A stretch of DNA of 64,000 bases from Haliclystus octoradiatus (lineage: Eukaryota > Cnidaria > Staurozoa > Stauromedusae > Haliclystidae), in assembly GCA_916610825.1 (NCBI GenBank), contig OU744448.1:14445936-14509935 (forward strand). The letters run 5' to 3'. Position numbers and translations under genes: made by a program. The notes under the pieces were generated by a model that saw only the letters and a list, made by a program, of their open reading frames with translations, was not told the DNA's origin and did not search any database. Every line of letters starts with the position of its first letter. Position 1 is the first letter of the stretch. Shown here one piece after another: positions 4,180-63,344 of this stretch.

Positions 4180-7100
4180 CTATGATAGCTCAATTTCATT
4201 CTTTTTGGCATTTACAAGGTTCTTAAGGTAGTATTCACCTGTAAATAAATACAAATGTATTCAATCAAGGTTTTCAATCTAGATGCCAATTAGTTGACCT
4301 AAAGGAGCAAAAATGTTCAACTTTGATATGAATGAAATTGCCAGCACCATGACAAACTAGTACACATCGAAGCACCCAGGCCTGATTCAAGGAAGAGGCA
4401 CGTACATCCACGTACATACATATACAACCCAATCTATCACAGTCCTTTCCCAGTAAGACAAATAATTGAGTATGAGTGAAAGTGCCTATACAGCCCAGAA
4501 TGTTCAAAAACGGCTGTAGTCAAGCACACCTAAGACGGACAATAAATTATCAGATCAGATCAAAGCAAGAAACGATAATAACATATTCAATATCGCAGCA
4601 TATTACATATCAGAACGTTTTAGATATTCATGACTGGGCAGTCTTTCCAACTTACCTGCACGGTATGACGATCTGACAAGTGGTCCACTTGCTGTGTATT
4701 TAAAACCCATTTTCTTACCAAGATCTTCAAATATCTTGAATACTTCAGGCGAGACGTATTCTTTAACCTGTTGGAAGAACAGAAATATGTCCAGGATTAT
4801 GCTACACAACGCATCTCTACAATATGCAGTGTCCACCACAGCACAGCATAAGAATCAAGCACATCTGATGACATCCAGCATTACGCCTCGATGCATGTTT
4901 GTCAAGGATACCGTGACTCACTAGTTTCGAACGAGGAAAAATGTATGCAAGCTATATGCAGCCATAAATCATACGTTTAGATAAAACGCTAACCATTATC
5001 GTTTGGATACTATTAATTTGAATACTCTGCTACTGCCGCGATGCAAAGTCTATTTACCTGGGAACATTAATTCACCTTCAATGGCATACATAGAGAATTT
5101 TGACAGAGATGTACACTGTAGTATAGTAACGAAGTAACCATTAAAATCAAATATGGTAAGTATTCATTTGATTAATTTTGTATTATTTTACGGCATAAAA
5201 CCGTGTTGAAGGTGTTCTGCGAATGAGAAAGCCTAATCATGTCTTGGCAGATCAAATAACTGTGTGGTGCATGGGATTGCAATTCATGATAGTGCCTACC
5301 TACAAAGTAAATGTGACATATACTACTCTATACCTTTAGATGAGATCGAGTAGGTTGCATATATTGACCCAATGTGACACACTCAACACCAACTTGACGA
5401 AGATCTAATAAAAACAAAAGACAATTTAACAGCTGCACCAACCAAATAAAACCGTTATTGCCAATGATCTCAGCTGAAATCGCCAGCTGAAACCAGAACT
5501 ATGGCACTTCATTTAGTGTCATGGCGCCTTACGTTCAGGTATAGAACAATTGATAATCAAAACAAATATGACATGGGGTATGTGTATAGAAACTTCTGCT
5601 GTTCAATTTAAATTGCCACTCCTCTAGCAGACACAGACAAATTGCATAGGTGAAAACTATCTCTCTGAAGTGCGCATATTTTGGCATTGTTTTCACTTTT
5701 AGAACAATTTGAATTGGTTATGAACAAGTGGAAGATTCATATGTGATTAAAGTTTAACAATTTACCAAGCATTGCTTCTCCAACTTCTTCAAGAGTTTCA
5801 CCAATACCAACCATAATGGAACTTTTTGTAATGAGTTTTGGATTCACTTCCTTGGCATGTTTTAACACAGCCAGTGATTGGTCATATGACGCTCTGGGAT
5901 CTCTTACTAACCTAGAAAGAATGAATAACAGAAAATAATACCAATCATGTAACATGAAGTCAATTGAACTCTCTTTCTTTCTGAAATCTTTGTCCATGCA
6001 ACAAATGTGACAATTCTTCCATAATCTGTACATCTGATTCCACTATCAACAAACTAAGCAATAATGAAGCCAGTAATAAGTTTTATTGCAATGTATGATG
6101 TTCCAATCAAAGTTACATACAAACATGTAAACAGTAGATACAATGCTGTAAACCTACAGTGAAACCTACACAACCACCACCTATACAACCACCACCTATA
6201 TACCTATCTACAGACTCTATAATCGTCACTTCAGCAAGTCTTGTGCAAACTAATTTATAAAAATACGAAGGTAGTCTGTGTACAGAGGCCACATTATCTA
6301 AATCTAATAGTGGCTGGTATACACAGGTTTTATTGTACAGTAAATGGAATGAAACCATTTCAAAGACAATAAACTAATGATCAAATATTGGAGAGTGGAT
6401 TTACATTGCGCCGTGTATTAATTTGATATACAGCAATATACCCAGCTATGACAGCTATCTACATAGATTACATTAGTTGTAGTAGTTGCAACCCTACTCT
6501 GAAATATCTACCTTCAAGAGTATTAAATAATAGGATTTAAATACGGTAGTCACAGTTAGGTAAATTACCATGTTAAATTTGCCACAGTTTCAATGTTATG
6601 GGCGTAGACATCAAGACCAGATAGTGCAACATTTTCAATTTGTTTCTTATTGCCACGGAAATCAGGAGTAAGACATTCGACTAATATTCCAGGTGACCTT
6701 CATAGGAGATGGAAAGTGGAAATATAGTTAATACAGAATTGCATTCTACTGTTCCCAACACTGTTCAGTGAAAGCTGTATATATCGGCCAGCCATGAGAG
6801 GTAGATAAATTGACCACTATGTACAATGACCTTTATATAGCGGGTTTATATAAAATGAGAGTCAAAAATGAAACATTCTAAATTGCGGGAATCTACAATG
6901 TTTCATTTTTGACTCTCATTTTATATGAATGCTCTGATTAAATTCATTGAGCACTATACCAAGAACTGATGTGGAACAATCCACCTATTAATATTATTAT
7001 ATTATTATTATTATTATAGCGGGTTTATTCAATAGAAAATACTATTTTAGATATTGCAAGAGCGACCACTATAGACAGGTGGTCACTGTGTAGAGGTGAC

Positions 7101-10100
7101 CATTATACAGGTTTGACTGTATATGCTGATACCATGAAAACTCTAGATACAACAGCTATTATAACATTGCAATTTAATAATCATTTCCATTTGATCAAAT
7201 CTTGACATGAGTATGCACTTGGTCTCTGCTTACAACTATAACATATCATACATAATATGACTACAGTATACATAAAAGAGCAGGTTCTGAAAATTGACTG
7301 GAACTAAGGATATATTTGAAAGCATATTGACTTCCATTGGGAATGAGACTGCTACTAGAGATTACAAAGTAAATAGAGTGGGTCTATCAAGGACTTTGAA
7401 AGCTCATGTCTGCTGACATTGCTGGCTGGATATCATCCATCCAATACACAGCCAAAACGAATAGCTTACGATGAAAAACTCGTCTACGAATTGTTGACAC
7501 AGAAAATAAAAAATGTGGAAAACAAGTAAAAATGTACTTAAATACAGGGTTGCTTTCTGACAGAGTTCATTGCAATATTACTTATAATACAAAAGACTTG
7601 GTCGAATGTGAGTGTCTTTGTTTAGCAGCTTCATTTTCATTGTTGAGGACGGACGATTACAATAACGTCTTACATATAAAATAATTAGTAATAAACATGA
7701 AACATACATTTTCTTGATTTCACGCACAGTTTGTGCAAAATGTTCAGAACCACCATCGGGTAGATCTAGAAGCAACATAGAATTTGCTCAAGTCAGATTA
7801 TATATAAAGCAGTAACAACAATTACTAGAATGTTATACATAGTAACATAAAACGAGTCTTTATTATAATATGGCATTGATTGTTTACACTTTGGCAATTG
7901 AAGTTGGGTTAGGTTAGCGCAATTCTTCAGAAAAATTAAAAAAAAGGTTATCAATTACCGAAGCTATTGGTTAAATTGACTGCTTATATGCATTCAAAGT
8001 ATTCTGATGATTCTGTCTAATCGAAGCAATCAATGCTGCCCTTGTGAAAAAGTTCACGAGTTGATTAACATGAATTTGTCCAATTTTTCACAAATTTTCA
8101 CAAACAGATCATGAAATACTTATGGATTGTTCATAAAATTCTGGGAAATTTCTGATTCATGAGCTGTTCAAGAGCCTCAAGCAAATTTTCATGAACTGCT
8201 CATTACTTACAAAGTTTTTTTCGCAATGGTGACATTGGATTAACACAGTGCTACATTGATCCACACTTGGGTTAAATCGAACAATGCTTTCATCTGACTG
8301 AGCCTGTGTTAGCACTTTCAGTTTCTCAGGGTAGGCCTACTGGTAACTAAACGTAGCCGTTGACTGTCAATGACTATCAACAGATTAAATAATGAGCATC
8401 AGGAAGCAGTATCAAAGCATCCCAGGCGGTATCTACCTTGCTGATTGTACTCTTCTATTCATAGAAAAGTTTTCTTAGATCGATGGTAGTATGTACTCTC
8501 ATTACTGTTACCAGTTGGAAGAACAGATTTCAATCACATAAATCAATTCTCTCAGACGATTCCATCGAAGATAGAAGCGAGGTTGAGTTGTACTGATCTA
8601 GGAAGATTTGATCTCTAAACCTTTAGGCGTAGATCCCTCATACTCGGTTCTGACTGAGGGACAATATGCAGTATCCACACAGCAGTACAACCACATCCAT
8701 ATATGACCCAAATACGTACCATCACGATCAACTGACGTCATAACAATGTAATCCACCTCCCACTGACTGATCGCCTTGGCTGTGTTGATTGGTTCCATTG
8801 GGTCAGGTGGAGGTGGGCTTCGAGAAGTCTTGACAGAACAAAATCTACAACCTCGCGTGCATGTATCACCAAGTATCTAAAGGCATTACAAATGAGAAAT
8901 TAAATTTACATAACAAATACGTCTTGTTGCCATTAAGCAGATTTTGAAACATTTATGAACACATTTTGAAATAAAACAATGTTACTGCTGTATGAATGAC
9001 TAATAAATCCCATACAAACACTGATATATGAAACATTGAATGGTCTTATAATATCGATAAATGAATAAAATTGAATAATAAAGAAGGGAGGAAGTGACAT
9101 AGACAATATCATAGATAATAGCTAGTGGAGTGGAAAAAACAGAATAAATGGAGTTATTTTGACTTTTCAAATATCAACAGAGCTTGTTCCAATCTGGAAA
9201 ATTTGGAATGTTCAAAAATTACATCTTGTACATAAATCTGAAGGAATTGGGAATGTCAGTGCTGGATAATGAAATTCTACACAACATGCAAAAAATGTGA
9301 CATTAATCACAGAAAAAGTACTATAACTAAACAATTAGGTGAAGATTCAGTTTTCAACACAAAGAAAAACATAGAATAACGTTTGCAAGAAAGAAAGAAA
9401 GAAGTGGACACATGATCAAATGAAATATTACTTCGAACAACTATGGTCCGCATTTTTAGACCTCTGTTTGCCATCTTTTGATTTTGGTTTTGGCACTGAG
9501 TGCAATTTTAAAAAATTGCATTTCTCCGAAATTGAACTCCTCTAGAGTGATCAGAATCAAGAAATTTTTGCAGGTATACGATTAAATGAAAAATATATTA
9601 TCTTATAAACCAGACTGTTGAAATTCAATTAAATGCTTTTTTTACATATTTGATATGACTCACCATGATTGTTGCAGTTGCTGTTCCACTCTCTCCGCCC
9701 CAACATTCACCTATATTGGGACACTTTGCTTCTTCACATACCTGGGATAGAAATTATATAGATAGAATTAGAAATTATGATTATTACAGGATATATATGG
9801 CTCATGCAAATTTTGAAAATTAAAAGAGTTGTTTGCAATTTAATAAATATCATTCTACAATTAATTCAAACCCAAGCGATAAAATTTTCATTTCCCATCC
9901 ACTAAAAATGGAATTGTACAGATTTCAGGATCAAATAGCCTGTACAAACCATCTTTTTTAGTCTCAGAAAATTCTATAATAAACTAAACAGGCAACCATT
10001 CACTCTCTCTTTGTGCAAATATTGGGAGATCTTATTTTATTGACATCTAACTTACTGTGGATAAATTTGATTTTCTCAGTGAATTTTTCAATCTTGTATA

Positions 10101-13100
10101 GTTTTTTCCCTTGGGAATGTCAGTCTTGAGCCAGCTAGGTAATCGCAATCTATCAACATTAAATTAAACACATTTGTTTATAAAGAACACAACCAACAAT
10201 AAAGTAGAGCTATTTAGAATTTAACATAGAGTAGTCACATACTAATTTCTGTTGAGTGTGCCATCCACATCTCAAATTAATTTAACTATATATTGAACAT
10301 TATTGGTTGAGAAGCGTATATTATGTGTGTATTGCTTCCATGATAATTAATGCTTCCCTCAAACTCAATAAAAAGTTGAGAATTATTCAATGACATTTAC
10401 AATAGGGTGAGCAGAATACCTAGCATGTAGGCATTCAATTAATGGAGCTAAAAGTAAAACAGCATTTTCAAAGTGGTAAATTATATGCTGTATCACATAT
10501 ATTGATACCATTCATTGTATTTGGAATTTTGTTAATAACATTTATTTAAATCAATTCTCATTCAGAAATTGTTTCTTGCTAAAATGGAACTGAAATGGTT
10601 TACAAACCATCTTTCAAACAAACAACAAGCTGTATCCATTGACAACACTACATCTGCTAGTCAAATTATAACATGTGGAGTACCACAATGTAGCATACTT
10701 GGACTCCACATGGCAACTGTTCCCCATAAATGTATTTCGGTTTCTTTTGGCAATATTAAATATCACATGTTTTCTTCATAATTTGTCTGATATGTTTTTG
10801 CCACATGCATACCCTGTCCATGATGTGGGTGTCTACTTATCTTCAGACTTGAAACCAAATATACATTGTCAATATATTAATTCTAAAGCACTCAAGCGGT
10901 CACACCGTCTTTTGCAACATTTTAATCAAATTACTCAGTACAATTTGCCAAAGATTGTATCTACATCTGTTCTCTTCTTGAGTCCTGCTCACCCTTGGCT
11001 GATCAAAGACATCAAACTTGATGAATCTGATAAAAGGAGTTAATGCGAATGTAAAAGGAAAGTTTCAAGAAGACAGTCTTTGTGTGAAGATCGATTAAAA
11101 TTAACTAAGAAAAAGTGTGTCTTGTCTATCTCCCTCACATTGACCATATTGATGTCACAGGTTGTGGCCATTCTTTGTTACAGAAGTGGAGTGGGCTTAT
11201 AAATATTCCATGTGCATTTACTAATGATGCCTGCCAAAAACAACAGAAGAGGCTGCTAAAATCATGCGGGGAAATATTCAAGGGAACAACTGCCACTTTT
11301 AATACCAACAAAGATCTTGATATTTTGCGAGATAATCCAGGTATACTAAATATTGGGGTTTCCCTTGATGGGCCATAGCAACAAAGAGGATTCAGGTCAC
11401 ACAATGGTGTTGCATCAGTCATGGATTTAGTAACTGTAGTGCCATTTACCAATTGATCAGGTTCTGTCCAACTTCTGTTTAAAGTGCAAGCTATCTAGGG
11501 AAAGAAGTGATGAAGATAGTTGAAAGAGCAAAAAAATTATTGCCAGCCATCGTAAAGCTATTAGCGCTAATATTTCAACGACTAATCGATGAGGATCTGC
11601 TGAAAAGATATGTACGTAATAAAAAGCTGTGAATCCTGGAAATCATCTAGAACAGGCAGAAGTGAAGCAAGAATTTAAAATACACAGAAAGGCTGAAAGG
11701 GCTAGCAGCAGACATGATCCTTTTCCGTGTTTTCACGGATTTCTGCAGAAATAACATTTTTCAGAATGAAGATAATCTGATATATTTATAATTTTTAATT
11801 GAAGAAGTTTACAATAATCTCATAATTAACTTTGACACTAGACCCTAATCCCTAACCCTAGCCATGTGATCGAGTGAAACACGTGAATTGCGATCCTCCT
11901 TGATCTAGTGTCAAGCCTCGTTTAGCGAGTTGGTTCGAGAGAGGCTGGCCTTAGAGTTATTGCTTTTAGACCATTCTGTAACATCAGTTACATGCAACCC
12001 TTTTGAAATTTCGCGGGAAAAACATGGCGACTGATATGATTGTTCAGTGTGATGATTCTGTACAGCTTGACGATGAAATAAAAACATCGTTGGAACTGGT
12101 CATGGGTGGAAAAAAAGTTGAGTTCAATGTAACAGATATTCTTCCATCTTTTTCGTGGAATGGATCTCAAACTCTGTCCTATAACCTGAGCGCAGTTATT
12201 AGAAAGGTAGGTGCATGGACCACTTACCAGTTACCGCTGAAAATCTGAGATCACACCAGACCTACTGCTACAGCATATTCCAAATTTACAAACACCTGAA
12301 CTATTAATCAGGCTCAATTTGTTGGAAGTACAATTGAATACATATTTTACTAGATTATCTTGTCTCTTGTTATACAATAAGCTATTGACTTATTTAATCA
12401 AGAAATTATAGCCTAGTCATATCGCTGATGTATTAATTTTTCTGTTGATTTTGTTTCTGTGTTTGTGGAAGACTAACGTCAAATATTTTGTGGGCATTTT
12501 AAATCATCAAATAAACTTTGAAAATATTATTACTCATATTTCAACCCATTTATTGGATCATTTTTTGATCTTCTGTGCTTTTTATTAGTACTGTAACACA
12601 ATATATTTTGAAATAGCAAAATAATCCACATTACTGCAACATTCAAAGTATCAAGTCTTCGAGAGAGAGCACCCATTTTTGAATATTACCAGTGTGGATA
12701 AGATAGCCTAGTAGCAACTATAATACCGGACAATTCTATGGAGTAAGCAAGCGCAATCATTACTGATTACAAATACAGTAATATGTGTTTAAGCTGAACT
12801 AAACTATTCTTATTTTATTAATGCAATATTTTAGTTGTAATTACTGCTATTGTATATATCTCACAATTCAAATTTAAAATATATGAAAGTCGTTCACTTC
12901 TACTCACCATTTTCCGTATCCATCAGATCAAAGAACCTGGAAAAGCATTATGATGGCTTTGTAATAAAAAGATTAACTATGCTTCTCGTGGAGTAATTGC
13001 ATTGACAGGTAGGCATAACAGTCATTTCCAATCAAACACACACTTGAAATAAACAGAAGTGTGCTATTTCACAGAGTAGATCTCTCTTTTCTTTGAAATC

Positions 13101-16100
13101 ACATACAGATCATGTTGTTACAAAAGTTCATATGTACTCAAGTTAACTAAGTTTAGCCTACCTTGAACCTCAATTTCTACAATTCATCATAATTATGGTC
13201 TTCACTCAATGTATGCTTCCAATGATATTCTTGATCAGCCTTTGCCTATAAATTCAAATGTCCCTCTTAGTGATCGTGTGAGTAAGGAAGTGATCATGAA
13301 AAAAATTGTGCTTGCATTTGTGGCAGAACACAGTCTTTCTTTTTCAATGGCGGAGAAAAATGTCGATTTAGCTAGTAAAATGTCTACTGATTCCAAGGCT
13401 AATTCAAAGATCAAAATAGCAAGAACAATTAGTTCGTATAAAATGAGATATGGTCTATCTGTTGTGTTCAATGAAGAGTTGTGTGAAGAATTACAAGCTG
13501 GAGGTTTTCTTTGAATATCGATGAAGCAACAAGCTCAAATCTGCATAAAATTTTGACTGTCCTTGACTATTATTGCCCAGAAAGGAAGGAATGAAATTGT
13601 TGTAGAGCATCTAGATTCTGTAAATGTTCCTACTGTAACCTCAGAATCCATTGTTAATCAGCTATCAAGCATGTTTCAATCCAAAAAATTACCTTGGTCG
13701 AATGTGATGGCTATGTTGATGGACTCATGTGCAGTTGCAAGAGGGTCAAAGAATGGGGTAGAGGTGCAAATCATGGAAAAACTTCTTTTGAACAATACTT
13801 AGAACAGCTATTTAGGGATTTGCATAATGATTTAAAATTTCTAAAGATATCTTTAGTTATATTAGTTATCTTTCAAAACATGTGTCTCTTACTTGGTGTA
13901 ACACACCGCCATCCTGAAATGTACTTTCCAAATGTGGCAGTCAACACCGTTCACCTATTCCATGCTTATATGGTATTTTAGTTTGGATTTTTACGTGCTG
14001 ACGATCAGATTCTGTATAATGTACGTCTAGCTGCTATATATACATCACACAGTGTATCAGAGGATTCACAGAAAGAAATTGTGTCTCTTCACCAAATTAT
14101 TAAAATTAAAAATTAACTGATGAAGGAAAAGATAGAAAAGAAAGAATCTTGTTTTATACCAGAAGGAAGACAAGATTATATTTGAGTTCATACTTCTCAG
14201 CTTTGTGTAATATGACAATTTATGTCAAAATCTTCCAACAAGAAGAATCTGGAGTATTCACACTGCATGCCGAACAAACCAAAGTCTTCAAAGAATTTAT
14301 CATCAACTTTATTAATCCAGAAGTCATTAACAAAAATCCCACTATTAAGAAGCTAAAAAAAAATCGATTTTGAGCTGCCTGTTAATCATCTATCAAATGG
14401 GGCTGTTGGTGCATTTGTTGGCGCAGTTGGTTAAAAAATAAATAAGCAATCAAAAAATAAGATACTATTGTTGCTGATTTTATACCGCTGGTAGATAAAA
14501 CCAAAATGGCTTATTCAAAATGCGCTACATATCTGCTAAAAAAGCTTCCATTGGACATTGATTTTTTAAAGGTAGTTTCTGCAATTGATCCTGTTGCAAT
14601 ATGTTTAAAACCGCTATTGTTTTAAGTGCTCTGTTACGTCTGCCAGATTTGGTGTGCAATGTTTTATCTCAAGAAGAAGAAAACGGCTACAGCGTGGAAA
14701 TAAGGAGAATTATGGTTGATTCTACATTGCCCCAGGTTGTAGATGACAAGGGGAAGCATTGTAGAGCTGACAAATGATAGGGGAAGTGTCAGTTTATCAT
14801 AACATTGTTTAGGTAGAATGAGTTTAGCACTGTTGACTACTTTCCATGATCCAAGGGTGGAAAGTAGCTTCAGTGTCATGACTGATGTTATTGACAAAAA
14901 ATCTGGTTGCATGAACGTTGCAACATACTCTGTAATTCAGAATGTCAAATATCACTTGAATGCTGTAGCATGTCAAACGTCCTCTTCGAAGGCCATTCAA
15001 AGGTTTCATAGAAAAGACAAACTTACTTCTCCTGTCATAAGAAACGTTGTACTGTAACCAAACTCCAGAATTTAAAAAAAATATGAAAATGAAAGAAAAA
15101 GTAGCATTGATGTTCTCAAAGAAAAGAAAGCTTGACATAAATTCCAAGCCATCCACCACTCGTAAAGATGTGCAGCTCATGTCTGCAGAGTTAGAGAAAA
15201 ATGCTGAGAAGCAAAGTTTACAATTTTCTGAAGAGGAGTCATTATCACATAAAAATTCTTCTTCCCTATTCCATACTGAAATGGAGGCTTTAAGAGAACC
15301 TAAAGCAAAAAAGCAAAGATTAATCAAATCTGAAGCTATTTTCAAAAAATAAATTACGGACTTATCCACAAATATTAGTTTTATTTAAGTTAAGTTTGAT
15401 GATAATTAATTTAGAATTCCAGATATTTCAATAAGATTACATGTTATTTTTAAATGAAGAAGCTTTCCATATTATGAAGTTGTTTATCAATAATATTGTT
15501 TAATGATCTGCTTGAAATGTTGTTATGATTCTAAATTACCATGGTGTGTTTATTCTTTTTTCCAAGCTTGTTCATTTAAGGCTGAACTGTGGTCAGGTCT
15601 TATGAATGAGCATGTATCACATAGTTTTAATGCCCCCCATGGTTAATAAGGCTAATTAATGATATTGTTTCACATAAGTAATATGTTAGCATTCTATCCA
15701 AGGAATCAGGACCAAATAATTTTGACCTATGCTACCAATACTGCAGCATAACTTGAAAAATTTATTATACATTCAACATGCGTATCAACCTCCATAGGTT
15801 CTCACCAATCAAGGCTCTACTTGCCATTATCCCAACATACTAGTATAGAATTATTTAATCATGCAAGTCATACAGTAGGTACTACATAGCAAATAATTAT
15901 CTATTTTATAAAGAAAAGTATAGACATCATTTGTAAGTGATTTTGAATAGAATTAATATCTCAAAATGTACTAGAACTAATATTTGATGTATGTAAATAT
16001 GCGAAAAATGCTCTCCCGGACTCCCTAGCTGACATCCTTCCCCGCCCCCTTTCAGCTGAAATGATTTTTCCTGGGATCCTGCCTGGCTAGCAGTGAGCGT

Positions 16101-19100
16101 ACCAAGATAAAAAGAGCGGCTTGGTTTACTGCATTCGAGGCAAAGGTCCAATCGAAAAAAGCAGAGGATCCTAAAACAAATATTTAGACAGAACTACTGA
16201 AAACCGATCTGTTCTTATTTTCATGTGGTGATGACGCAATCGTAAAACTGACAAAATTGGTCAAGCCAAAAAAGTTTCACAAAATACCATATAAAGAAAT
16301 CAAAGATGTTGTTGATGCATTACTAGAACTAAAGAAAAGATTGCTTATAGCCGATCGCATAAATTTCTTGGTAATAAAAAGCAACCCGATGAATCTGCTG
16401 ATGAGCTTCATATGAGAATCAATCATTCAATGGACAAATGCCATTTTGAAAATTTTACAAATGCCGTTTTGAATAATACAATTTGTTGGAATTAATGTTT
16501 TTGTTATGTTAGAATGTTGAATGATTTTAACGTTAAAATTTTGATGTTTTGAATAACCGTTGTTTAAGAATATATATTCACAGGATGTTGTTCACTGTCG
16601 CTGAACGCGAGTCATCCAGAAAATTATCCGAAAAATATAACTTCCCATTAAATGTGCATCAAAGACGTTTTCATTATGTATGGTTTAGTTCTCTTTTTTA
16701 TGGCTGGTTAATTCTGTTATTCTTGATGGTGCATTTTGTATCAACTGTCTCCTTTTTGGAAATCGAAATGATTTTGCATATGATAGAAGTAACTCAGCAG
16801 CTGTTGTGATCTTTCAAAAACTGGCAAAAAGGCTTAAGAAAGTTCGAGGATCATGCTTCTAGGCCTCCTGTTTACATTACTGCCATTGTAAGTGCTGTTA
16901 AATGTAAAAGATACATGGAAAACCAGAGCATTGGGATTATAGAGGAATTAAACTCCACTGCGAAACAAAATATGGAAAAAATACAGTAAAGCCAGACTCA
17001 GGTCAATTATTAATGCCATACTCTAATGTGGTCACCAAATGTTTCTCTCCGGGGTCATTGTGAAGATGAAAAATATTTGCATACCGCTAATCCATCTTAT
17101 AATGTAGGCAATTTCTTGAAAGTGTTAAAGTTTGCTCCAAGACGTGTTTAGAAATTAATCTGTTTTTGACTTTTCGTAAGCCTGCTAATGCAACATATCG
17201 CTCATAAACTGTACAAAATCAGATTTTTCAATTTGTGGCTCTTCCCTGGGGAATAAAATTATTTCCAAAGTTCTTTCAATTTTGGCTGATGAAGCTACTG
17301 ATTGCTCTAACGCTGAGCAAACGTCCATTGTGATTCGATTGTATAGTGATAGCAACATTGGGGAAGAATTCACTGGATTTTATTGCTCTTCAAAAGGAAT
17401 GAAGCTTAGGTTTGCCATCTACTGTATCATCCAAGCTGTGGAGAGCTATGGCCTATCAATCAGCCTGTGCAGACGTCAAGGTTACAATGGTGCTGGTGCC
17501 ATTGCTGATATCCATGCTGGTGCAGCAGCTCACATCCAGAAAATCTATCTGGAAACTATCTGGAAGCTCCATATGTTTATTGTAACTCTCATGTTTTGAA
17601 TTGGTGTGTTGCTGCTTCTTGTAAACTTCAACCGGTTCAGAGTATTTTTAATCAAATTTGGGTTTTTATTTCGTTTTTAATCGTTCTCTGAAACGATATG
17701 CAAGTTGCTTGAAAAACTGTCTTTTTGTTCCCCAAAACAATGCTCCTGCAGACTCTATATGCTCTTCTCATCGCATCAACACAGTAATAGCGTTCATTGA
17801 ACAATTGTTTATCAGAAATAAATGTTCTGTTAAAAATCTTAATTTCATGGATGCTACTTATGGCATGCCATTAAATATAATGACAGACAAAGAAACATGG
17901 AAAAACAAGGATACATTTGAGGCCTTTTGAAAGCGATTTTAGGATGATCTACCAGAGCAAGTGTTTTTTAATCTTGGTGAAAGTGCCCCAAAAAACCTTT
18001 GTAATAAAACATGTCACCATACTTTCTTGCATGATCCTTCCAAGTTTAGGTCTTCAGTGCCAACGACTGCCACTGCAGACATCGTTTCTAGTGTTACTCC
18101 AATTGTTGTTGGTAACATAACTACATCAACGAAGGCTACATTTTTATTTATTTTACCTGTTGATGTTAAATAGGATAAATTTATATGGGTAAAGCGAGCT
18201 GCTGATGGTAGTGAGAGCGCTTTTTGTAAATTGGGCCATCAATCTATAATGCCAAAGTTATCAAACTTACAAAATCACAAGAAAATTGAAAAGCATATGA
18301 AAAATGCCAGAGCAATTGGCTCAACAAGGTCTGTTGGGTCAATATTTATAACTGCAGAGAATGATGTTAAAAGATTTGAAATCCGCATGGCTGTTGCGAT
18401 TGCCTGTCATAGTGCAGTCAGCAGTATAGGCCATATTGGAGAAATAATTAAAGCCAGTGATGGCGGAGGAAAAAGTGTTATTGGTGATATGAAGCTACAT
18501 CGCAGGAAATGCACTAAACTAATTACAAACGTTGTGGCGCAAACATTCAAATATGATTTACGGGATAGTTTAAATGGAAAAAAGTTTTCAATATTATTAG
18601 ACGAATCAACAGACGTATCTTCTTTAAAGAATATGGCTATTGTATTGCGATACTTTGATGATGATCAAATTTGTACTGCGTTTGGTGAATTGTTTCCAGT
18701 TACTAGTACTACAGGCGAAGATTTATACAATGTATCAGTTGCCTGGCTTACCCCAATGAACATTTCTATATCAAACTGCATCAGGTATGGCTCAGACGGT
18801 TCTGCGAGTTGGAGAAGTGAAAGGTTGGAGAAAAAAATTCACTTTGGAGTAGAATACATAAGAAATCACCAGAATGAATACAAGTAAAATGTATTTGTCA
18901 CTCCTTAAGCCTGAAGGAAATCCCTAAATGGTTTTCCAAGAGTCAGATCAGGAGGGAAGCTTTCAAGGAGCTTTTTGACCTTACCAATACTGGTGAAGAT
19001 ACTCAAGGTACTCCTTTCCTATTTCAAAAATTCTGCAGCACACGCTGGCTAGTTCGTGGCAAAATAATACTGAATATTATATTTAATTGGGAAGAATTAA

Positions 19101-22100
19101 AAGAGCGTACTTTGCATGTGCAGAAGTTGGACCAAAGCAGCAAGTGAGATTTAAAGCTCGTCTTCTACATGGAATGCTAAGTGACCCTGTTAATTTTCTG
19201 TACTTTCATTTCGTGTCACCAATTGTCACAGAGTTTGAAAGTGTTAACGCCTTTTTTCAAGCTACTAATGCAGATCCAGAAACAATGGAAAAGGAACTCA
19301 CTCTACGATATGACAGTCTTAACGCAAGGATCAATTCTAATAGAGGACATAAGTTGCCTATTGACAAAATAGATTTTGGGGCAAAATTTCTGCATGAGAC
19401 AAATAAATATCTAATAGATTGACAACACTCAGAAAGTGCAGTGTGTACAATAGCCAATATCAAGGAAAGATGTGCATTGTTCTTGGAAGAGGCTTTGAAG
19501 CAGGTGAATGATAGACTTCCTTGAGTTAGAAACGTTTATAAAGGGTGTGATCGCCGAAGCCTCTAACAGATGTAGAGCCTCTAATTAAATGATTCTAGCT
19601 AGAAGTTAATTTCTATATAAATGATGTGTAATTAAATAGTTGTGTTAATAGTGATTGGTTGTTGTATTTGATGTGATTTGATTGGTTCTTGTAAATGTAA
19701 TTAAGGTGTGTATCTTGTATTTTAAATTCATGTTCTTTGATTGCGGCAAGTAGAGATGGTTCTTCAACATTATTTTATTTTTTAAATTAAATTGATTCAA
19801 ATACAGCCTCGTGATTTTCTACAATAACAGAGAATGCTATTGTCCATTGTTTTGTATCTAACCATCGTCATGACAAGTGTCCTCATGTAATGTAAATGCA
19901 ATTTTTGTAATAAAACAAGTTACCAAACCTTCTTGCACGATCCTTCCAAGTCTAGGTCTTCAGTGCCGACGACTGCTACTGCAGACATCATTTCAAACGT
20001 GGCTCCAATTGTTGTTGGTCACACAACTACACAATCGAAGGCTACATTTTTCCTGTTTTACCTGTTGATGTTGTTGGCCCAAACGGTTTTCTAAAAATCA
20101 CTTACCAAAATTCAACTTTTCAACTGAGCCAGTGAAATCTAGCATATATTTTAACGGATGCCCTTGCCACATCATTCATAACGCCGCTCAAAAATCAGAT
20201 GCAGAATTTACTATTAAGACAAGTTTTGACGCTGAAGAACTTGTTGTCAAATTATACCATTGGTTTGACAAGTCCACAAAAAGAAAAAAAACAGTCTTGT
20301 GGAATTGTGAATTCTGCGACAAAGAATACAGAGGGGCAGTTCACCACATCTCTATCGGATGGCTCAGTTTGGAGTTGCCATTGAGAGAACCCTTGAGCAA
20401 TTTAAAAGCCTTAAATATTTTATTTTTGTCTAATGATTTTCCACAACCATGTTTCAAACGTTTGTATGTACATTTTGAAGAACCGTTAACTGAGATTTAT
20501 CTTTTATTTTTGAAATCTGTTACGCCATTATTCACGCATGCAAACCAATTATTACAAAAAGATGAGCCTATGGTACAAATTCTCAAGCCTCATTTGAGAA
20601 AATTAATAATTCGACTTCTTGACAAGTTCATCAAGCCATCAGTGTTAGCACCATTTAAAAATGAAGGTAGCTTGGCCCAATTAAAATATGAAGATGTAGC
20701 ACAGCACCTGAATGATGAAAAAATTAGTACAGTATTGGATATGTATCGAAGCAAAAGCTTAAATCTTTACTGGAAGAATGCTACATTACCAACGCCGATG
20801 TTTTTTACCAACAAATTTGATAAATTGTTTGCTGAGCACTGAAAAAGCATTTTATATCAAGGCTGTAAAATATTTATTGAAATGGTGTCCCATTGAAGAT
20901 GAGTTTTTGAAGCATGCTACATGGATGGACATTGATCAGAGATTGAATGCTGATGTTGACTCTGTTGGGTATTTTGTAGGCCGATATCCTAACTTAATTG
21001 CAGAGATGTGACGGTTTGATAGTTTTTTTTTCAATATCATTATGAATTAGTGGTTTATTTTGGCACAAAGTCGTTGCTAAGGAGGTTTGATGAAATGAAA
21101 TGTACAACATTCCAGTATTCCAAGTAAAACCTAGCTTGTTCACTCAAAAACAGGTAAGTTATTCAAAATGTAAAACAATTAAATTAAAAATTGAAAACAT
21201 TTTAATCTATACTATAATATAAAATTTCAATAAAATCTAAACGCTTCAAGGTGCCGTAGTCAAAGACTTTCCAACTATATAGGTTGTCTAAACTTTGTGC
21301 TTCGTTTCCTCTGTTGCATGTTTTCAAAGTTCTCTTCCGCCGCTAGTTGTATTTTAAAAAATAAAGTCAGTTATAGTCGTCTGATCAGAAAAAAAATTGA
21401 AGATTTAGAAAGAGCATTAAGTTCTACATTATATTACCAAATTAAACAAAATCCGAAAATTTGTTGAATTGTCGATTCTGACACGACCACAAGAAAGATT
21501 ATGTTTTGTTTGACTTTATGCTGAAAAATGAAAATGCTTTATTTGATAATTTTTCAATAATTTCCAACTTCTTTCCCCATACTGAACAATTGGATTTTGC
21601 CCCGATTGTCGATTCTGACAAGAGCCGTCACATATTAACGCGGATCTATTGCAAGAACAGTTCACCACATATCAGTTGATGTCTGATATTGATGAAGCAT
21701 TATCCTTAAAAACAGACATTGGACTCGAAGAAAATGACCTGTATCAGATTGATATTCTATGGGGGCATCTGAAACATTTGAAAGTTCACAGAACAAACAC
21801 AAATCAATTTGATCTACTCTTCAAAATAGCTGAGGTAGTCTTAACAGTACCACATTTAAATGAAGTGGAGTTGGACAGAACATTAAATTTTGTTAATGAT
21901 CATCAAAACACATATCAGTAATGCACTTCATTTCAAACCATCAGATAAGATGATAAAAAGGCCAAGAAGGCAACTAAGGGGTACAACGAACTCCATAAGA
22001 GAAATCAAAATGATGACACTAATGTACATGTTATTATTATTATAGCTAAAATTTGACTTATACTTTGAATTTGTCTATCTTTGTTCTAATGACTTTTTTG

Positions 22101-25068: not shown

Positions 25069-25100
<32 letters not shown>

Positions 25101-32846: not shown

Positions 32847-33282
32847 GTTTTGATTGTCCCTGTCCCTATTTTGTGGGGTCTGATATTTGATATTGCGAAA
32901 ATTATTAGGGTTCGATGAGCGAGAGCAAGACAATTATATAATACGTATCTCACCAGAGTAAAATATTACACTAGTTTCGAAATAAGAAATAAAATTAATA
33001 ATCCTTGCTATTAATGGTGCAGTTCAATCAGACATTTTGTAGCAGTCCTCCACCTAGCCTGCGCGCAGACCTTACTTGAAAATCTTACTCCCTCTGAAAT
33101 TTAATGCCTCGTTTTGATTTTTCGAAGCAGGGATATATTATGATTGTCATTCTATGATTCTAAGGGACGATTCTCATACATTATTAGTTTCAATTTCATT
33201 TGGATTTTGAATTGTAAAATTTAATGTGTGTAAGAACCATACATTTGTGTATGCAAAAGATAGTTTCATCTCGAGACAAATT
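32847..33282. promoter_or_regulatory. shared LIAS / optineurin-like 5' region
   Basis: Only 436 bp separate the LIAS start codon (32844-32846, minus) from the proposed start codon of the optineurin-like gene (33283, plus), so one bidirectional promoter probably serves both. No TATA box was identified. On the plus strand an ATG at 33224 opens a 20-codon upstream frame ending at TGA 33284-33286, which overlaps the main ATG. Confidence 0.6.
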
Positions 33283-45200: not shown

Positions 45201-47440
45201 GAGGCTGCCGGTCAATGTTATGCCTTTAAGGAAATGAGGAAAAGAAGTCTGTAAGCGTAAACATTATTTTTGCTCAAATTTTCATTTCTCACAACCAATA
45301 GCCAAGAGAGTAGGCCTACTATTTTTATAACTATAACTAGTACTGTAGTTTCCCTTATTGCACATATTTACACAAATCATTTACCACATATTGTTAAGAG
45401 TCAGAAGATACGGTACAAAAGGTACTGATGTTAAACAGTTAAATCAGGTAATTTTGTACAGAAAATATCTATGAAACAAGTTTTTCACTCAAAGAAAAGC
45501 TTTGAATTGGGAGTTACTGGTTGACATTTCGGAGTCACCCATGTTGATTTGAATGGTTGCTTATATTGAAATGCTGGATGCATTGATTGAAGCATGATTG
45601 CCCTTTGTGTTTGAACAGAGAAATATTTATTTTCGATGTTTGAATAGTTTTAACTTATCTATACAGTCAGACATGTTATAACGACCACCTCTATACAGCA
45701 GCCACCTGTATATAGTGGCCGCTCTTGCAACTTCTAAAATAGTTTTCCTATTGAAATGGCACTGTATATAAATGCCACCTGTATAGTGTATACAATGTGA
45801 AGTGTTACTAGATACATAGCCAAAATGTCAATATGTAAATCTAGGCCTAATTGTTATTGTATTATCATTTTTTACTGTCACCCCATATTGTCAGCCTGCT
45901 GTGCCTCTAGCACATTCAAATCACAATTATCAAACCTTCTTTCACAATTAAGGCATCTAATTTTTCACATTCAATTATCATCATTTATTCAGGAATGCCT
46001 GATAAGTGTGCATAAACTGATAACAGTATTAGGACACTTTTTTCACAGGACTGACTTATAAAAGAAAAATTATTGTAATTCCTAATTATGTATAATTAAT
46101 TATTCAATTGTAATGATTATTGGATTATTCTTCATGCAGGTCTATGCAGAGTTAAACATTTCTAAAACCAATCAATAAGTATAATAATTTAAACATACTG
46201 TTCCTTAACCGACATGGGTTTACTTTCAGATGGGTGAAATGAAAATTTCACACGAGAAAGAAGCAAGTGAAGCATTGACAGAACTATACAAAAAGTTAAC
46301 AGCGAAAGATAATGAAATTGAGGGTGCCAAGATGGAAATAAACAGTCTAAAAGAAGCACTCAATCACTTATCACAATACGATAAAGAATTAGAAGTGGAA
46401 CGGGAAAAGGTTGAGCTGCTCGAATTACAGGTATGGATGCCAAAACGTGTATGTAAAGAAACAATAGCTTAGAAATGTGTCCCAAGTGATAATAAAGGAA
46501 ATGTAGATGGCCATGATATGATTGCATTTGTAACACATTCAGATTACAATCATTGTACTGTAATTAACCACTCCCATTTGTAAAGATATAGAAGTTTGAG
46601 ATGGACAGTAGTAAATGTGTACCATATGCAATAGGGAACTGAAGTTCCCTACTCAAGGTCTACTGCTGCACTTCGAACTATATGTCAATATAGAGATAAA
46701 TCATTATATAGAGTTGATTTCTAGATACCATCTGTAATATGAATTTAAACTACATATTTTATTATGTATGGGATCACACGATTACCAAACAAAAATATTT
46801 GCTGTCTTCTGCAATTTCTATTAACTCGCAAGGGTTGTTTCCAATGTAGCAAATACATTTCCACCATGAATTCAGCTGAGATTGTTTCTTTAATATTTGT
46901 ACTATCCATGCAGTGTCGATGTTCATATTGGATTGAAAACTGTATCCTGTAACTTACTTTAGATAGCACTGAGTACTGATGTTGATATTTTACCCATAGA
47001 TGAATCTTTATAAGACTGACTTTGAAGCAGAGAGAAGTGCCAGGGAAAATCAAAATTCAGAGATAGTAGCAATGAAAGAACAACTACAAGAAGTTGTGAA
47101 ACAGAATGACAGATTAAAATGTGATCTTGAAGTTTTATCGGCAAGTGATATGGGAAGACCAATCCAACGTAATAACCATGCTAGCATGATGTCTAACCAA
47201 TGGCAAGAGCCTGTACCTTCATTGTATGGCCATGTACCATATCACACTGGAAACGATCAACATAATTTAAATGGACGTGGAGTGCCAATCTATGATCAAC
47301 CAGCATGGAACATACCTTACAGTAACAATAATGCTAACAATGACAATGAATCTGAAACAAGTATACCATGCCCTAAATGTAATGGGATATTTCCTAACAT
47401 TGACTCTTTGCAGATACATATGATGCATTGTCTTAAATAA
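33283..47440 (+). CDS. OPTN: optineurin/NEMO-family ubiquitin-binding adaptor
   Basis: Eight exons: 33283-33456, 41470-41628, 42062-42433, 42699-42787, 43761-43901, 44847-44946, 46230-46430, 47000-47440 (1677 nt, 558 aa; human OPTN 577, NEMO about 419). Phases agree at every junction. The N-terminal coiled coil (LTKLIQENDSLKKCLLDNN) matches the OPTN/NEMO start. Long coiled coils fill exons 3-7. The UBAN ubiquitin-chain-binding motif lies at residues 413-428 (YKTDFEAERSAREN), and a C-terminal CCHC zinc finger (CPKC, DSLQIHMMHC; C536, C539, H552, C556) ends the protein. These proteins bind linear/K63 ubiquitin and act in NF-kB signalling or selective autophagy. The length and zinc-finger wording favour OPTN, but an invertebrate gene ancestral to both OPTN and NEMO is possible. 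The start codon was chosen at 33283 because upstream in-frame sequence has no ATG. Intron 1 (8 kb) carries a Ty3/gypsy element. Confidence 0.9.
33500..34715. other. optineurin-like intron 1, proximal part
   Basis: AT-rich, no coding or RNA feature seen. It contains several TAGGCCTA palindromes (33751, 34202, 34405) and short homopolymer or AT tracts. Confidence 0.45.
34723..35100 (+). mobile_element. candidate non-autonomous Helitron
   Basis: The left part reads TACTATATAAACGTCGATGT, similar to common Helitron 5' starts. The right end has a weak hairpin (ACCCAGGGGAGCGGGT) followed 10 bp later by CTAG and then T, matching the CTRR-T rule. No Rep/helicase coding is present. The call rests on end structure only. 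Confidence 0.4.
35438..35683. mobile_element. TGTGACGG MITE, copy 2
   Basis: Inverted ends of about 20 bp: the left end reads TGTGACGGTTTGTGCCAGAA and the right end, reverse complemented, TGTGACGGCTTGTGTCAGAA. TA flanks both sides. Its right 90 bp match the element that interrupts hAT D at 21008-21633. Confidence 0.65.
35807..35904 (-). repeat. 3' LTR of the Ty3/gypsy element
   Basis: 98 bp; differs from the 5' LTR at three positions, including the terminal base (TACG here, TACA in the other), so its TG...CA end has mutated. Preceded by the CATGG target duplication. Confidence 0.95.
36054..36485 (-). pseudogene. integrase C-terminal region (frameshifted)
   Basis: Carries the end of the integrase and the post-integrase tail (SRIPAHHSAFAQVW, then WTEQGTIIGIGKNRDYHVE and RRSTRIKTRPKRY). 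It is separated from the integrase core by a one-base loss at about 36556-36560. No chromodomain was recognised. Confidence 0.75.
36547..37650 (-). pseudogene. RNase H end and integrase core of gypsy pol
   Basis: Begins in RNase H (VITDHRPLIPIM, then FIPDALSRAP) and continues with the HHCC zinc-binding domain (HGSHQGIERTKRRA, CEPCQ) and integrase core (SADLFSHGGHTYLVYVD, IRTDGGPQF, YYPQSNGHTESAV): the DDE residues are present. It is in the same frame as the RT segment and separated from it only by a TGA at 37684-37686 where a Trp codon is expected. Confidence 0.9.
37684..38742 (-). pseudogene. reverse transcriptase of gypsy pol
   Basis: Ty3-type RT: PDGKLRLCVDLKHLN, FSTMDAKHGYWQLPLD, the catalytic VDDILTD, and the start of RNase H (ILETDASRLGGLGYVLLQ). 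The upstream join to the protease frame is broken by an eight-base A run (38670-38677), one base longer than the frame needs. Confidence 0.9.
38621..39586 (-). pseudogene. gag zinc knuckles and aspartic protease
   Basis: Two zinc knuckles (CSNCGYHHYEGKEC and CTNCNKLNHFSKVC) precede a retropepsin with the active-site ADTGAQGSVMS. The segment then runs into the linker before RT. It is offset from gag by a one-base loss near 39607-39612. Confidence 0.9.
39607..40341 (-). pseudogene. gag of the Ty3/gypsy element
   Basis: 244-codon frame starting MVNINAKPTKADLEIE, with a Gln-rich stretch and a capsid-like helical region (FIQWKKAWDNYATV, DNEAFDDFYTALCVKATDAA). It ends prematurely at 39607, just before the zinc knuckles, through a one-base loss. 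Confidence 0.85.
40454..40551 (-). repeat. 5' LTR of the Ty3/gypsy element
   Basis: 98 bp, minus strand TGTAATG...ATAACA with canonical TG/CA ends. Followed outside by the CATGG target duplication and inside by the TGGCGC primer-binding site. Confidence 0.95.
40560..41160. other. optineurin-like intron 1, distal part
   Basis: No feature recognised; AT-rich intron sequence between the LTR element and the TCATGAAC repeat. Confidence 0.4.
41161..41362. mobile_element. TCATGAAC-rich MITE, best copy
   Basis: Starts CCCCTGTGAAAG and ends TTTTCACAGGAG, an inverted pair. The interior is built almost wholly of TATGAAC, TTCATGAA and GAACT words. It is related to 48136-48222 and 8038-8220. No target duplication was seen. 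It lies 107 bp before exon 2 of the optineurin-like gene. Confidence 0.6.
43435..43608. mobile_element. pogo-like MITE with TA target duplication
   Basis: 174 bp with ends CAGTGTAACCCCATTAATAT and, reverse complemented, CAGTGTAACCTCGTTAATAT, flanked by TA on both sides (43433-43434, 43609-43610). The interior contains two AATATCACAACCCGCTTA units. This is the classic pogo/Tigger type of non-autonomous element. It lies in intron 4 of the optineurin-like gene. Confidence 0.85.
44077..44682. mobile_element. hAT-type foldback MITE with 8-bp target duplication
   Basis: A perfect 8-bp duplication ATCTACCC (44069-44076 and 44683-44690) flanks about 85-bp imperfect terminal inverted repeats. Both ends share ACAGACCGCGATTCATTCAC near the tip and GTCTGTGTGA further in. 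An inner perfect 13-bp hairpin lies at 44150-44183 (left arm CTGCTCCAGGTTT). The 606-bp length, no coding and the 8-bp duplication fit a non-autonomous hAT element. It lies in intron 5 of the optineurin-like gene. Confidence 0.85.
45030..45660. other. optineurin-like intron 6, unassigned stretch
   Basis: No exon, RNA gene or mobile-element end recognised; simple AT-rich intron with a TAGGCCTA palindrome at 45311. Confidence 0.4.
45664..45768. mobile_element. CAGTCAGACATG MITE fragment
   Basis: TA then CAGTCAGACATGTTATAACG, followed by CGACCACC and GTGGCCGCTCTTGC. It is the reverse-orientation relative of 7014-7119. The right end at about 45768 (GCACTG, then TA) is uncertain. Confidence 0.5.
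45975..46060 (-). mobile_element. LINE 3'-end fragment
   Basis: ATCATCATTTATTCAGGAAT followed by CTTTTTTCACAGGACTGA resembles the 3' end of the minus-strand LINE at 29041-29100. A short truncated copy in intron 6 of the optineurin-like gene. Confidence 0.5.
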
Positions 47441-47686
47441 CTACTGTAATTTTATCATTTTATTTTAATCATAGCTTTGCTTAAATTGTTTTGCAAATTA
47501 TTTTATTATGTCTATAAATGAACTGAATGAGGTTAGCTTGTTTACAGTTAAACAATCACAAAATTATGTGGGATGTAATAATTTATATATTTTATTATTG
47601 ATGAAAATTGAAAAATTCCAGTCGTACAGAATTTTAATATGATAGTTCTACTTCTGTTTGCTACTCTAATCATAGTTTTATTTCTG

Positions 47687-60600
<12,914 letters not shown>

Positions 60601-60714
60601 TTTATTGCAATAGTGGCACCCGCCTCGCTTTTGTTTGACATTTCTCGAATACGAGGCCTCAGAGCAATAGCTCCCATCTTCTCTCTCTTTTCTTTCGTTT
60701 GTCCAGCACCAAAA
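60601..60714. promoter_or_regulatory. bidirectional YIPF5/RPL9 promoter and RPL9 exon 1
   Basis: The YIPF5 start codon (60598-60600, minus) and the first RPL9 donor (GTAAGA at 60715) are only about 115 bp apart. The plus strand carries a pyrimidine tract (CTCTCTCTTTTCTTTCG, about 60680-60696), the kind of 5'-TOP sequence that starts ribosomal-protein transcripts. RPL9 exon 1 is therefore probably a short non-coding exon ending at 60714. The start site is inferred. Confidence 0.6.
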
Positions 60715-61083
60715 GTAAGATATGTTTATGTTATATTAAATCGATAACATCCTCAATGATGTTGATTTATAAATTTTATTTTTCAAAGCCAAGATAAAAT
60801 AGGATATATCAATGTTTATGTACTGTCAACATTTTTCATGAAAATTAAAACCATGAGCTTGATCCGTACGTTTGAAAATGGCCAATGTACATGTCTATTT
60901 CATTGCCTCCTGTATTTATGTTACCAATATCCTATTATACTTCGTCCATCTTCTACTTGATTGCGTTTATATGAATCGCAAGTATTTGGAGCTTTCTGAA
61001 GCTGAAAATAAGCTGCATATCTAAATCATGATCTGAAATAGCCGCTATCAATTTTAATGTTGTCAATCTCTGTTTGATTGTAG

Positions 61084-63344
61084 ATGAAGACCATCTTGGC
61101 TTCAGAGAAAGTAGTTATTCCTGACAATGGTTGGTTTATTATTAGCTATGTTTGTCATTATTTTGATATGCTGGTAGTGATAGCCTGGTACTGAATATTA
61201 TAAACTGAATACATGCTGGACATATGATATTCATTGCTTGCTATGAAAGTTGTCATAAAATGTTTTATGTTTACTTACAGTCAAAGTCGCATTGAAAGGT
61301 CGTACTGTTATAGTAAAAGGCCCACGTGGTGAGTTAAGAAAGAATTTCAATCATTTGAATCTTGAACTTACACGAGTAGGAAAGAATATTATCAAGGTTG
61401 ACGTATGGTTTGCTACACGTAAAGAGTTGGCATGTGTTCGTACTATTTGTACACATATCAATAACCTCTTCAAAGGTGTCCAATATGTAAGTCTTACTAC
61501 TATAACAACTTATTATCATTCTGTTATAAACAATCAGATCAGTAATTAACGGAAAAACACGTATCTTGGAGTCAGACTTGATAGCTTGTTGTGTGCAGTG
61601 TATATCTCAGAAATAGAACAATAATTTCAATCTTGATCTGGCTGCACATTTTTTTAAAGGCTACCCTTATTGGTCTGTACGGACGAATAACGAAAAATTT
61701 ATGTTATTGGTCCGTAATCTGGGGACGAATACTAACTAAATCCCCATTATTCGTACATACGTACCAATAATAAAAAAAAATACATTATTCGTCCATACGT
61801 ACCAACAATTGAATAATAAATTATTTGTCCGTTGTATAACTTTGAAAATAAGTTATAAGACCAATAAGACCAATAAGGGTAGCCATTGAATAATAAATTA
61901 CTTGTCCGTTGTATAACTTTGAAAATAAGTTACAAATATCACTTTTTGTCGTAATGATTATTGTTATTTAAGGGTCAGGTGGTATAGTAATTTTAATCAC
62001 AGTTATATCTCTAAATTGCTACGGTCGGTAGCAGCAGTTATGCTATCAGAGTTTTATACTGTTCTGTTAGTCTTTTTTATAGAAAACACATCAAAAATAT
62101 TGTGAGTATATAAAAGCATATTCTTCCTTTCAAATTGATTACGTTTAATATCTTTAAAAGCATCAACCAAATACTTTGGAAACGCATTTTAATTTCTACG
62201 ACATGAGAATGGCTGCCTCTATGGCTTTTCCGGGGGTTCTTCGATGATCGAGGCAAACGCAAACATTTTGAAGAATTTTTATACGGAAAAACAAATACAG
62301 AGAATCGTAACATGAAGCATATTCTTCCTTTCAAATTTGTTACGTTCAAATGTCTTTTGAAGCTTCGATCGAATACTTTGAAAACGCATTTTAATTTCTT
62401 TTAATAAAAAATGGTTGCCTCTACGCATACGGCAACGACTCTTCAATGATCGAGGCAAACACAAACCTTTCCAAGATTTGTGTTTGGCAGCTTTTTAGAC
62501 TTCTTGTATGTTGTAAGCAAGCAAGTTTGGTATCACCGACAAATAAAGCAGCCATGATTGAATTAAATTAACTAAACTAGTTGGATAAATAATATTTCAT
62601 TAGCGACCTTCCACCATGAGAAACGACGAAAATATGTTCAGCCAAATGTTCAGCGTGAAAGTGGCTCCAATTCTTGAGGAATGAAGCCTGGTAACGACTC
62701 TCCCTAATCCCCAAGGATCCACGCGGACGAATAACGAAAAAAAAAACTGTTATTAGTCCGTACAGACTAATAACAGAATAATTTTGTTATTGGTACGTAC
62801 GGGCATATAAGCACTTCGTTATTCATATCTTGACTATTTCCGATAGGTTCTCAACGAATAGCATAAATGCTACTTGCCTACTTCTACCCATCCATAAGTA
62901 AGATTCAAACGAAACCCACGCCTTACCAGCAAACTATGCTGCCTTGCATGCCCTACACCTGTACTGCAATCTGGTGTGTGGAAGAACTCCACAATTTACT
63001 GCTGTATTATCATTATTATTATTATTCAACTTTGATAAGTTTGACTTGCATTGTTATTAATATTCCAACTGCGAAACAAGTTGTTGTCAAATGTATTCTA
63101 GTGCATCAAATTCTATATTTTTTGCTCTAACAGGGGTACCAATACAAGATGAAATCAGTTTATGCACATTTCCCAATTAACATGAACATCATTGCCAGTG
63201 GAAGTGTTGTCGAAATCAGAAACTTTTTGGGAGAAAAATTTACACGTGTGGTCAATATGAAGCCTGGTGTTCTTTGCAGATCGACTGGAGTAAAGGATGA
63301 AATTGCTCTTGAAGGGAATGACATTGAACTTGTTTCCAAATGCG
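61084..63344 (+). CDS. RPL9: 60S ribosomal protein L9 (uL6), partial
   Basis: Coding exons 61084-61129, 61281-61486 and 63134-63344, phases 1, 0, 1; further exon(s) lie beyond the window. The ATG follows directly after an acceptor. The protein reads [84 protein letters not shown] and [11 protein letters not shown]: a close match to eukaryotic uL6, ending at about residue 154 of about 190. The C-terminal part (starting AALIQQ in human) was not found before 64000. uL6 sits near the sarcin-ricin loop and factor-binding site of the large subunit. It shares a promoter with YIPF5. Confidence 0.95.
61659..61884. mobile_element. MITE with GGCTACCCTTATTGGTCT ends
   Basis: Left end 61659 GGCTACCCTTATTGGTCT, right end 61867-61884 its exact reverse complement (18 bp). 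The interior has the palindromic ACGGACGAATAACG / CGTACGTACCAATAA motifs. A 50-bp piece of the interior (about 61808-61857) is repeated directly after the element at 61886-61933. It lies in RPL9 intron 3. Confidence 0.75.
62116..62472. repeat. tandem duplication, period about 203 bp
   Basis: Two diverged copies, about 62116-62266 and 62318-62472. Both begin AGCATATTCTTCCTTTCAAA, share AACGCATTTTAATTTCT, and end in GATCGAGGCAAAC. Similarity is roughly 75% by eye. Each copy reads as a partly open, Lys/Arg-rich frame on the minus strand, which may be chance or protein remains. Confidence 0.7.
62725..62800. repeat. second ACGGACGAATAACG palindromic repeat
   Basis: GCGGACGAATAACGAAAAA followed by GTTATTAGTCCGTACAG and TTGTTATTGGTACGTACG. 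It shares its motifs with the 61659-61884 element and is probably a fragment of a related MITE. Confidence 0.5.

Follow-up and report, generated by a model that had tools for sequence, protein, structure and literature searches.

The genes for ribosomal protein L9 (RPL9) and mitochondrial lipoyl synthase (LIAS) are presumably arranged head to head in the human genome. Their adjacency is on record in two other vertebrates: the passages on chicken and cattle give gene order alone, without orientation, as UGDH, LIAS, RPL9, KLB in chicken (PMC5767321) and as KLB, RPL9, LIAS, UGDH in cattle, where KCTD8, YIPF7, GUF1 and GNPDA2 are found further along (PMC4467177). The present work deals with the same two genes in the stauromedusa Haliclystus octoradiatus, within a window of 64 kb (contig OU744448.1, positions 14,445,936 to 14,509,935; all coordinates below are those of the window). 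Across positions 4180-63344 the order is LIAS (-), a gene of the optineurin/NEMO family (+), YIPF5 (-) and RPL9 (+). Position 4180 is where the stop codon of LIAS has its final base, and at 63344 the last RPL9 exon visible in the window ends, at a splice donor.

LIAS and RPL9 are divergent in this locus, with 28.2 kb from ATG to ATG, and the four genes form two compact head-to-head pairs, LIAS with the optineurin-like gene and YIPF5 with RPL9, whose inner members stand tail to tail with 246 bp between their stop codons. A preliminary description of this DNA had put LIAS (-) and RPL9 (+) about 28 kb apart in divergent orientation, with a convergent optineurin-like (+)/YIPF5 (-) pair between them and a new head-to-head partner for each half. 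These statements are borne out by the ATG-to-ATG distance, by the intact spliced models of the two intervening genes and by the start codons, which lie 436 bp apart in the first pair and 483 bp apart in the second. In common with the vertebrate pair, both genes are present and close to each other, adjacent in chicken and cattle and divergent in the window. On the other hand, two complete genes intervene in the window, LIAS and RPL9 each face another partner, and beyond LIAS there is a kringle gene, whereas chicken and cattle have UGDH in that position. The preliminary description had also taken LIAS and RPL9 as head-to-head neighbours in human; their adjacency agrees with the gene orders listed for chicken and cattle, the head-to-head orientation being that presumed for human.

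Each head-to-head pair is most likely driven by one bidirectional promoter, as judged from the spacing and the motifs, and in the second pair the starts would be less than about 100 bp apart. Both start-codon distances are below 1 kb and divergent. The observed/expected ratio of CpG is 0.90 in the LIAS/optineurin-like gap, 0.89 in the YIPF5/RPL9 gap and 0.96 in 60601-60714, against 0.67 for the window. The motif AANATGGCGNC, which we take to be YY1-like, covers the start codon of one gene per pair, namely LIAS (32839-32849) and YIPF5 (60593-60603). It is found three times in the window against 0.27 expected, a number reached in none of 100 shuffles, and its third copy (at 12021) is away from the start codons of the four genes. 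Similarity between the two promoter stretches (P1 and P2, see the table below) as a relic of one split promoter was also considered and rejected, the matches being at chance level with a best expectation value (E) of 0.039.

Ribosomal protein genes have a TCT start and an intron in the 5' untranslated region (5' UTR). The RPL9 start codon sits directly after a splice acceptor, and upstream of it there is a 20-base pyrimidine run (60677-60696), after which a donor lies at 60715. Because run, donor and acceptor match the layout of ribosomal protein genes, the RPL9 transcription start is placed near the run, at a probable distance of some 76-95 bp from the start codon of YIPF5. When both strands of the window were searched for a pyrimidine run of at least 14 bases holding CTTT, with a donor matching at no fewer than 7 of 9 positions in the next 45 bases, two places were found, the other one at 59626.

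As in the animal bidirectional gene pairs treated in the relevant portions of two surveys (PMC2871058, PMC3815023), the divergent start codons are less than 1 kb apart and housekeeping genes are involved. The difference is that the pairings of this locus were not met in literature searches. With the supplementary pair tables of the surveys outside their scope, these searches found no description of LIAS-RPL9 as a bidirectional promoter, head-to-head or microsynteny pair, and at least three of YIPF5, RPL9, LIAS and OPTN came together only in an unrelated epilepsy review.

The anatomy of the locus is right and well supported. The four gene models were built with human proteins as a guide and from reading frames on both strands, the open reading frames of at least 50 amino acids having been surveyed over the whole window (between about 43.6 and 48.2 kb, the plus strand was covered, to 47.9 kb). 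The reading frames run open through all the models, free of internal stops, and the splice phases fit. All 23 coding introns (10 in LIAS, 7 in the optineurin-like gene, 4 in YIPF5 and 2 in RPL9) are GT..AG introns with matching phase; these ends were chosen during modelling, and the independent support lies in the open frame and the homology across them. In the optineurin-like gene, the 89-base exon at 42699-42787 comes from a phase-demanding search in which a single candidate passed. Processed copies were rejected on account of the introns present in all four genes. The last exon of RPL9 was not found within the window, which contains no N and has a GC content of 34.8%.

Table. Features of the LIAS-RPL9 region and the support for each (window coordinates)
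Feature	Position	Strand	Description and support
LIAS (lipoyl synthase, mitochondrial)	4180..32846	-	Spliced model, 11 coding exons, 371 amino acids, intact; Pfam and PDB
LIAS/optineurin-like start-codon gap, probable bidirectional promoter P1	32847..33282		436 bp; spacing, CpG, motif
Optineurin/NEMO-family gene	33283..47440	+	Spliced model, 8 coding exons, 558 amino acids, intact; Pfam and PDB
Stop-codon gap of the convergent optineurin-like/YIPF5 pair	47441..47686		246 bp
YIPF5 (Yip1 family)	47687..60600	-	Spliced model, 5 coding exons, 241 amino acids, intact; Pfam and tblastn
Probable bidirectional promoter core P2, from the YIPF5 start codon to the likely TCT-type start of RPL9	60601..60684		About 84 bp; sequence, CpG, motif
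Pyrimidine run (60677-60696) and probable short 5' UTR exon of RPL9, donor at 60715	60677..60714	+	Sequence
RPL9 (uL6), 3 coding exons in window, 154 amino acids	61084..63344	+	Spliced model; Pfam and PDB

With regard to gene identity, LIAS matches both the LIAS_N and the Radical_SAM domains of Pfam, and its five matches in PDB are headed by mitochondrial lipoyl synthase with a best E of 5e-147. RPL9 matches the Pfam domain Ribosomal_L6 and has 58 matches in PDB, the best being to L9/uL6 (E 1e-60), with residues 1-153 of its 154 aligned. YIPF5 matches Yip1 (PF04893) with an E of 2e-8 and 34.9 bits, the cut-off being 28.6, and gave no match in PDB; its assignment inside the Yip1 family comes from tblastn with human YIPF5, the sole family member compared.

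The fourth gene is called an optineurin/NEMO-family gene here, not optineurin. Its CC2-LZ domain and zinc finger pass their cut-offs, its N-terminal NEMO domain is weak and its PDB matches are mixed. The ubiquitin-binding coiled coil CC2-LZ (PF16516) is matched with an E of 5e-12 and 46.5 bits (cut-off 35.3), and the C-terminal zinc finger zf_C2H2_10 (PF18414) with an E of 3e-9 and 36.8 bits (cut-off 25.6); two more Pfam matches, YabA and ATG16, are under their cut-offs. The N-terminal NEMO domain (PF11577) is matched by the first 137 residues alone with an E of 0.0046 and 17.3 bits, under the cut-off of 23.2, and it is unlisted at an E of 0.01 for the whole protein. Among the 19 matches in PDB (E from 0.0004 to 0.01), 13 are to NEMO/IKK-gamma, 5 to optineurin and 1 to TNFAIP3-interacting protein 2. 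Optineurin is set apart from NEMO by an LC3-interacting motif in its central part and by an additional leucine zipper. A simple aromatic-x-x-aliphatic pattern for the LC3-interacting motif is matched at residues 7, 365, 488 and 543, with none between 8 and 364.

The vertebrate chromosomes bear on the history of this locus as far as the cited passages describe them. LIAS and YIPF7 both lie in 58.58-64.12 Mb of cattle chromosome 6, that is, within 5.54 Mb (PMC8113768), and mouse Yipf5 and Yipf7 are both accompanied by Kctd8/16 and Grxcr1/2, in paralogous regions of chromosomes 18 and 5 (PMC6114524). Compared with these Yipf regions, the likeness is that a member of the YIPF family is on the LIAS-bearing chromosome in cattle; the difference is that YIPF7 is megabases from LIAS there, whereas YIPF5 adjoins RPL9 in the window. 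Since LIAS and RPL9 stand side by side in chicken and cattle, their close linkage was probably inherited from a common ancestor with vertebrates. Likewise, LIAS, RPL9 and YIPF5/7 were probably together on a single ancestral chromosome before the vertebrate duplications, because cattle YIPF7, the vertebrate paralogue of YIPF5, is so near LIAS; on such a chromosome the meeting of these genes in the window would need no foreign DNA, and movement within the chromosome is favoured. The YIPF gene was probably already beside KCTD and GRXCR before those duplications, as mouse Yipf5 and Yipf7 share these partners, so that any removal of a YIPF gene from the gap between LIAS and RPL9 would predate them. 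As rough estimates, the chance of a given pair being divergent within three gene slots is about 1 in 10,000, becoming about 1 in 1,000 when some 10 pairs in the window are allowed for and about 1 in 50 if genes were shuffled within one ancestral chromosome. The ancestor of NEMO and OPTN may have shared the same pre-duplication chromosome, as is hinted at by the human positions, which are 10p13 for OPTN, Xq28 for IKBKG (NEMO) and 4p12, 5q34, 15q12 and Xq28 for the clusters of gamma-aminobutyric acid type A (GABA-A) receptors. Collections of viruses and prokaryotes were also scanned for relatives of YIPF5 and RPL9 (viral contigs) and of YIPF5 (genome contigs), giving 5, 7 and 17 peptide-pattern stretches of which none was confirmed; only YIPF5 and RPL9 were used, LIAS and the optineurin-like protein being left out (bacterial lipoyl synthases would swamp LIAS).

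The best explanation, held tentatively and with somewhat less than an even chance of being right as a whole, combines the two head-to-head pairs, an inherited proximity of LIAS and RPL9, the movement of a two-gene block and a slight lean to its removal in chordates. According to it, LIAS and RPL9 were likely close and divergent in the ancestor shared with vertebrates, on a chromosome that likely carried YIPF5/7 too, and a two-gene block that moved, with a promoter at either outer end, would account for the difference between the order in the window and that in vertebrates. Whether a block that ends in promoters were excised or inserted, both LIAS and RPL9 would still have a functional divergent promoter. 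The block would be old; instead of having been inserted here, it may have been lost from the chordate lineage at a time earlier than the genome duplications of vertebrates. This slight lean follows from the many older microsyntenies lost by vertebrates, put at 91% and 85% for two classes of older microsyntenic blocks in the relevant passage of a survey of 49 animal genomes (PMC8851819), figures that make it reasonable to regard the order in vertebrates as derived. The preliminary description had proposed the insertion or deletion of a two-gene block at a bidirectional promoter. This is supported in part: the difference in order does equal the gain or loss of a convergent two-gene block, and such an event at a bidirectional promoter, in either lineage, would be a possible cause. 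The rearrangement of the genes is real and of an ordinary, familiar kind, its attractive feature being that one bidirectional promoter may have been made from two.

A more specific form of the preferred explanation is doubtful. It supposes a pre-chordate block of LIAS, optineurin/NEMO, YIPF5 and RPL9 whose inner part was cut out from promoter to promoter in the chordate stem, so that the vertebrate LIAS-RPL9 promoter would be a fusion of two half-promoters once serving other partners. If the four-gene block were old, it would provide a datable case of one bidirectional promoter made from two, and it would let one ask whether RPL9 and LIAS, which are essential, require a divergent partner at all or one in particular. 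If it were young, the case would be one of ordinary local rearrangement.

Several points weigh against the explanation by block movement and removal. The orders compared are all from vertebrates (chicken, cattle, mouse), and both the direction and the common descent of the LIAS-RPL9 proximity depend on them. The shared promoters are deduced from spacing and motifs, and P1 and P2 are alike at chance level only. On the LIAS side there is no further vertebrate neighbour, the gene found there being the kringle gene and not UGDH. The evidence leans only slightly towards removal, through a general trend and map positions. Besides, the YIPF neighbours on both duplicated mouse chromosomes are KCTD and GRXCR, unlike the block in the window, in the passage that describes them (PMC6114524).

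It is possible, although on balance unlikely, that the vertebrate order is the ancestral one and that LIAS and RPL9 were parted in the lineage of Haliclystus when the optineurin-like/YIPF5 block was inserted between them. The compactness of the block, with promoters at both its outer ends, would suit such an insertion, and so would the other old partners of the mouse YIPF genes, KCTD and GRXCR (PMC6114524, in the same passage). The joints, however, bear no insertion mark in the form of a self-match or a recurring 15-mer, although an old event would leave none anyway. Less probable still is that the proximity of LIAS and RPL9 arose by independent shuffling within one ancestral chromosome, here and in vertebrates, without any shared promoter having been the site of an insertion or deletion. 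The listed positions of LIAS, RPL9 and YIPF7 on one cattle chromosome (PMC4467177, PMC8113768) agree with this, and Yipf7 and Yipf5, described as duplicates of one region (PMC6114524), would raise the chance of meeting again; nevertheless, a divergent orientation at a distance of three slots would still be unlikely, at about 1 in 50 by the rough estimate given above. An assembly misjoin between LIAS and RPL9, named in the preliminary description as one thing that would refute its reading, is very improbable, because the repeats of this transposon-rich region, some of them nearly identical, lie within introns bracketed by exons of the same gene in correct order, strand and phase, and no 15-mer of the three joints recurs in the window (0 of 421 for that of 436 bp, 0 of 231 for that of 246 bp and 0 of 468 for that of 483 bp).

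The repeat matches within 4180-63344 all fall in introns of these genes; introns 1 and 2 of LIAS and the first introns of the optineurin-like gene and of YIPF5 carry the largest. A marked insertion site at the joints was rejected, as these are free of repeats and self-matches. Within 4137-61083 the four gaps between neighbouring coding regions take up only about 1.2 kb out of 57 kb (43 + 436 + 246 + 483 bp), and the rest is nearly all introns with many pieces of transposons.

Intron 1 of YIPF5 contains a probable tyrosine-recombinase retrotransposon (53088-60056). Its reverse transcriptase is at 56253-57809, a recombinase match at 57710-58750 is under the Pfam cut-off, and a frame at 53480-54742 has no Pfam match. 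Its repeats follow the order A1 (53088-53518), B1 (58932-59216), A2 (59193-59621) and B2 (59773-60056), a layout that corresponds to the split direct repeats known from Ngaro/PAT elements. Their high identity, 99.3% for A and 96.5% for B, suggests a young insertion. Intron 1 of the optineurin-like gene holds, on the minus strand at 35807-40550, a long terminal repeat (LTR) retrotransposon with matches to reverse transcriptase, RNase H and integrase, terminal repeats of 97 bp (95 of 97 positions identical) and a short repeated flank. Reverse transcriptase matches of the long interspersed nuclear element (LINE) type are found in intron 1 of LIAS and intron 1 of YIPF5 (25272-27923, 29728-30783 and 51569-51859), the match at 30235-30783 falling slightly under the Pfam cut-off. 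In intron 2 of LIAS (13167-20839) there are pieces of reading frames that we take, by eye, to resemble hAT-type transposases; of three that were scanned, one gave a weak match to DUF4371 (E 0.009, under the cut-off) and two gave none. At 62114-62479, an intron of RPL9 carries a direct repeat of some 165 bp that has diverged to 76% identity.

No transfer RNA (tRNA) or known RNA feature was detected in the window, ARAGORN with the bacterial code being used for tRNA. Beyond LIAS, positions 530-4136 of the plus strand hold a probable gene for a secreted protein with a kringle domain (E 2e-11); Ig-like parts and a signal peptide were seen by eye, with no Pfam match for them. In the frame taken as its last exon, the apparent stop codon is 43 bp from that of LIAS.

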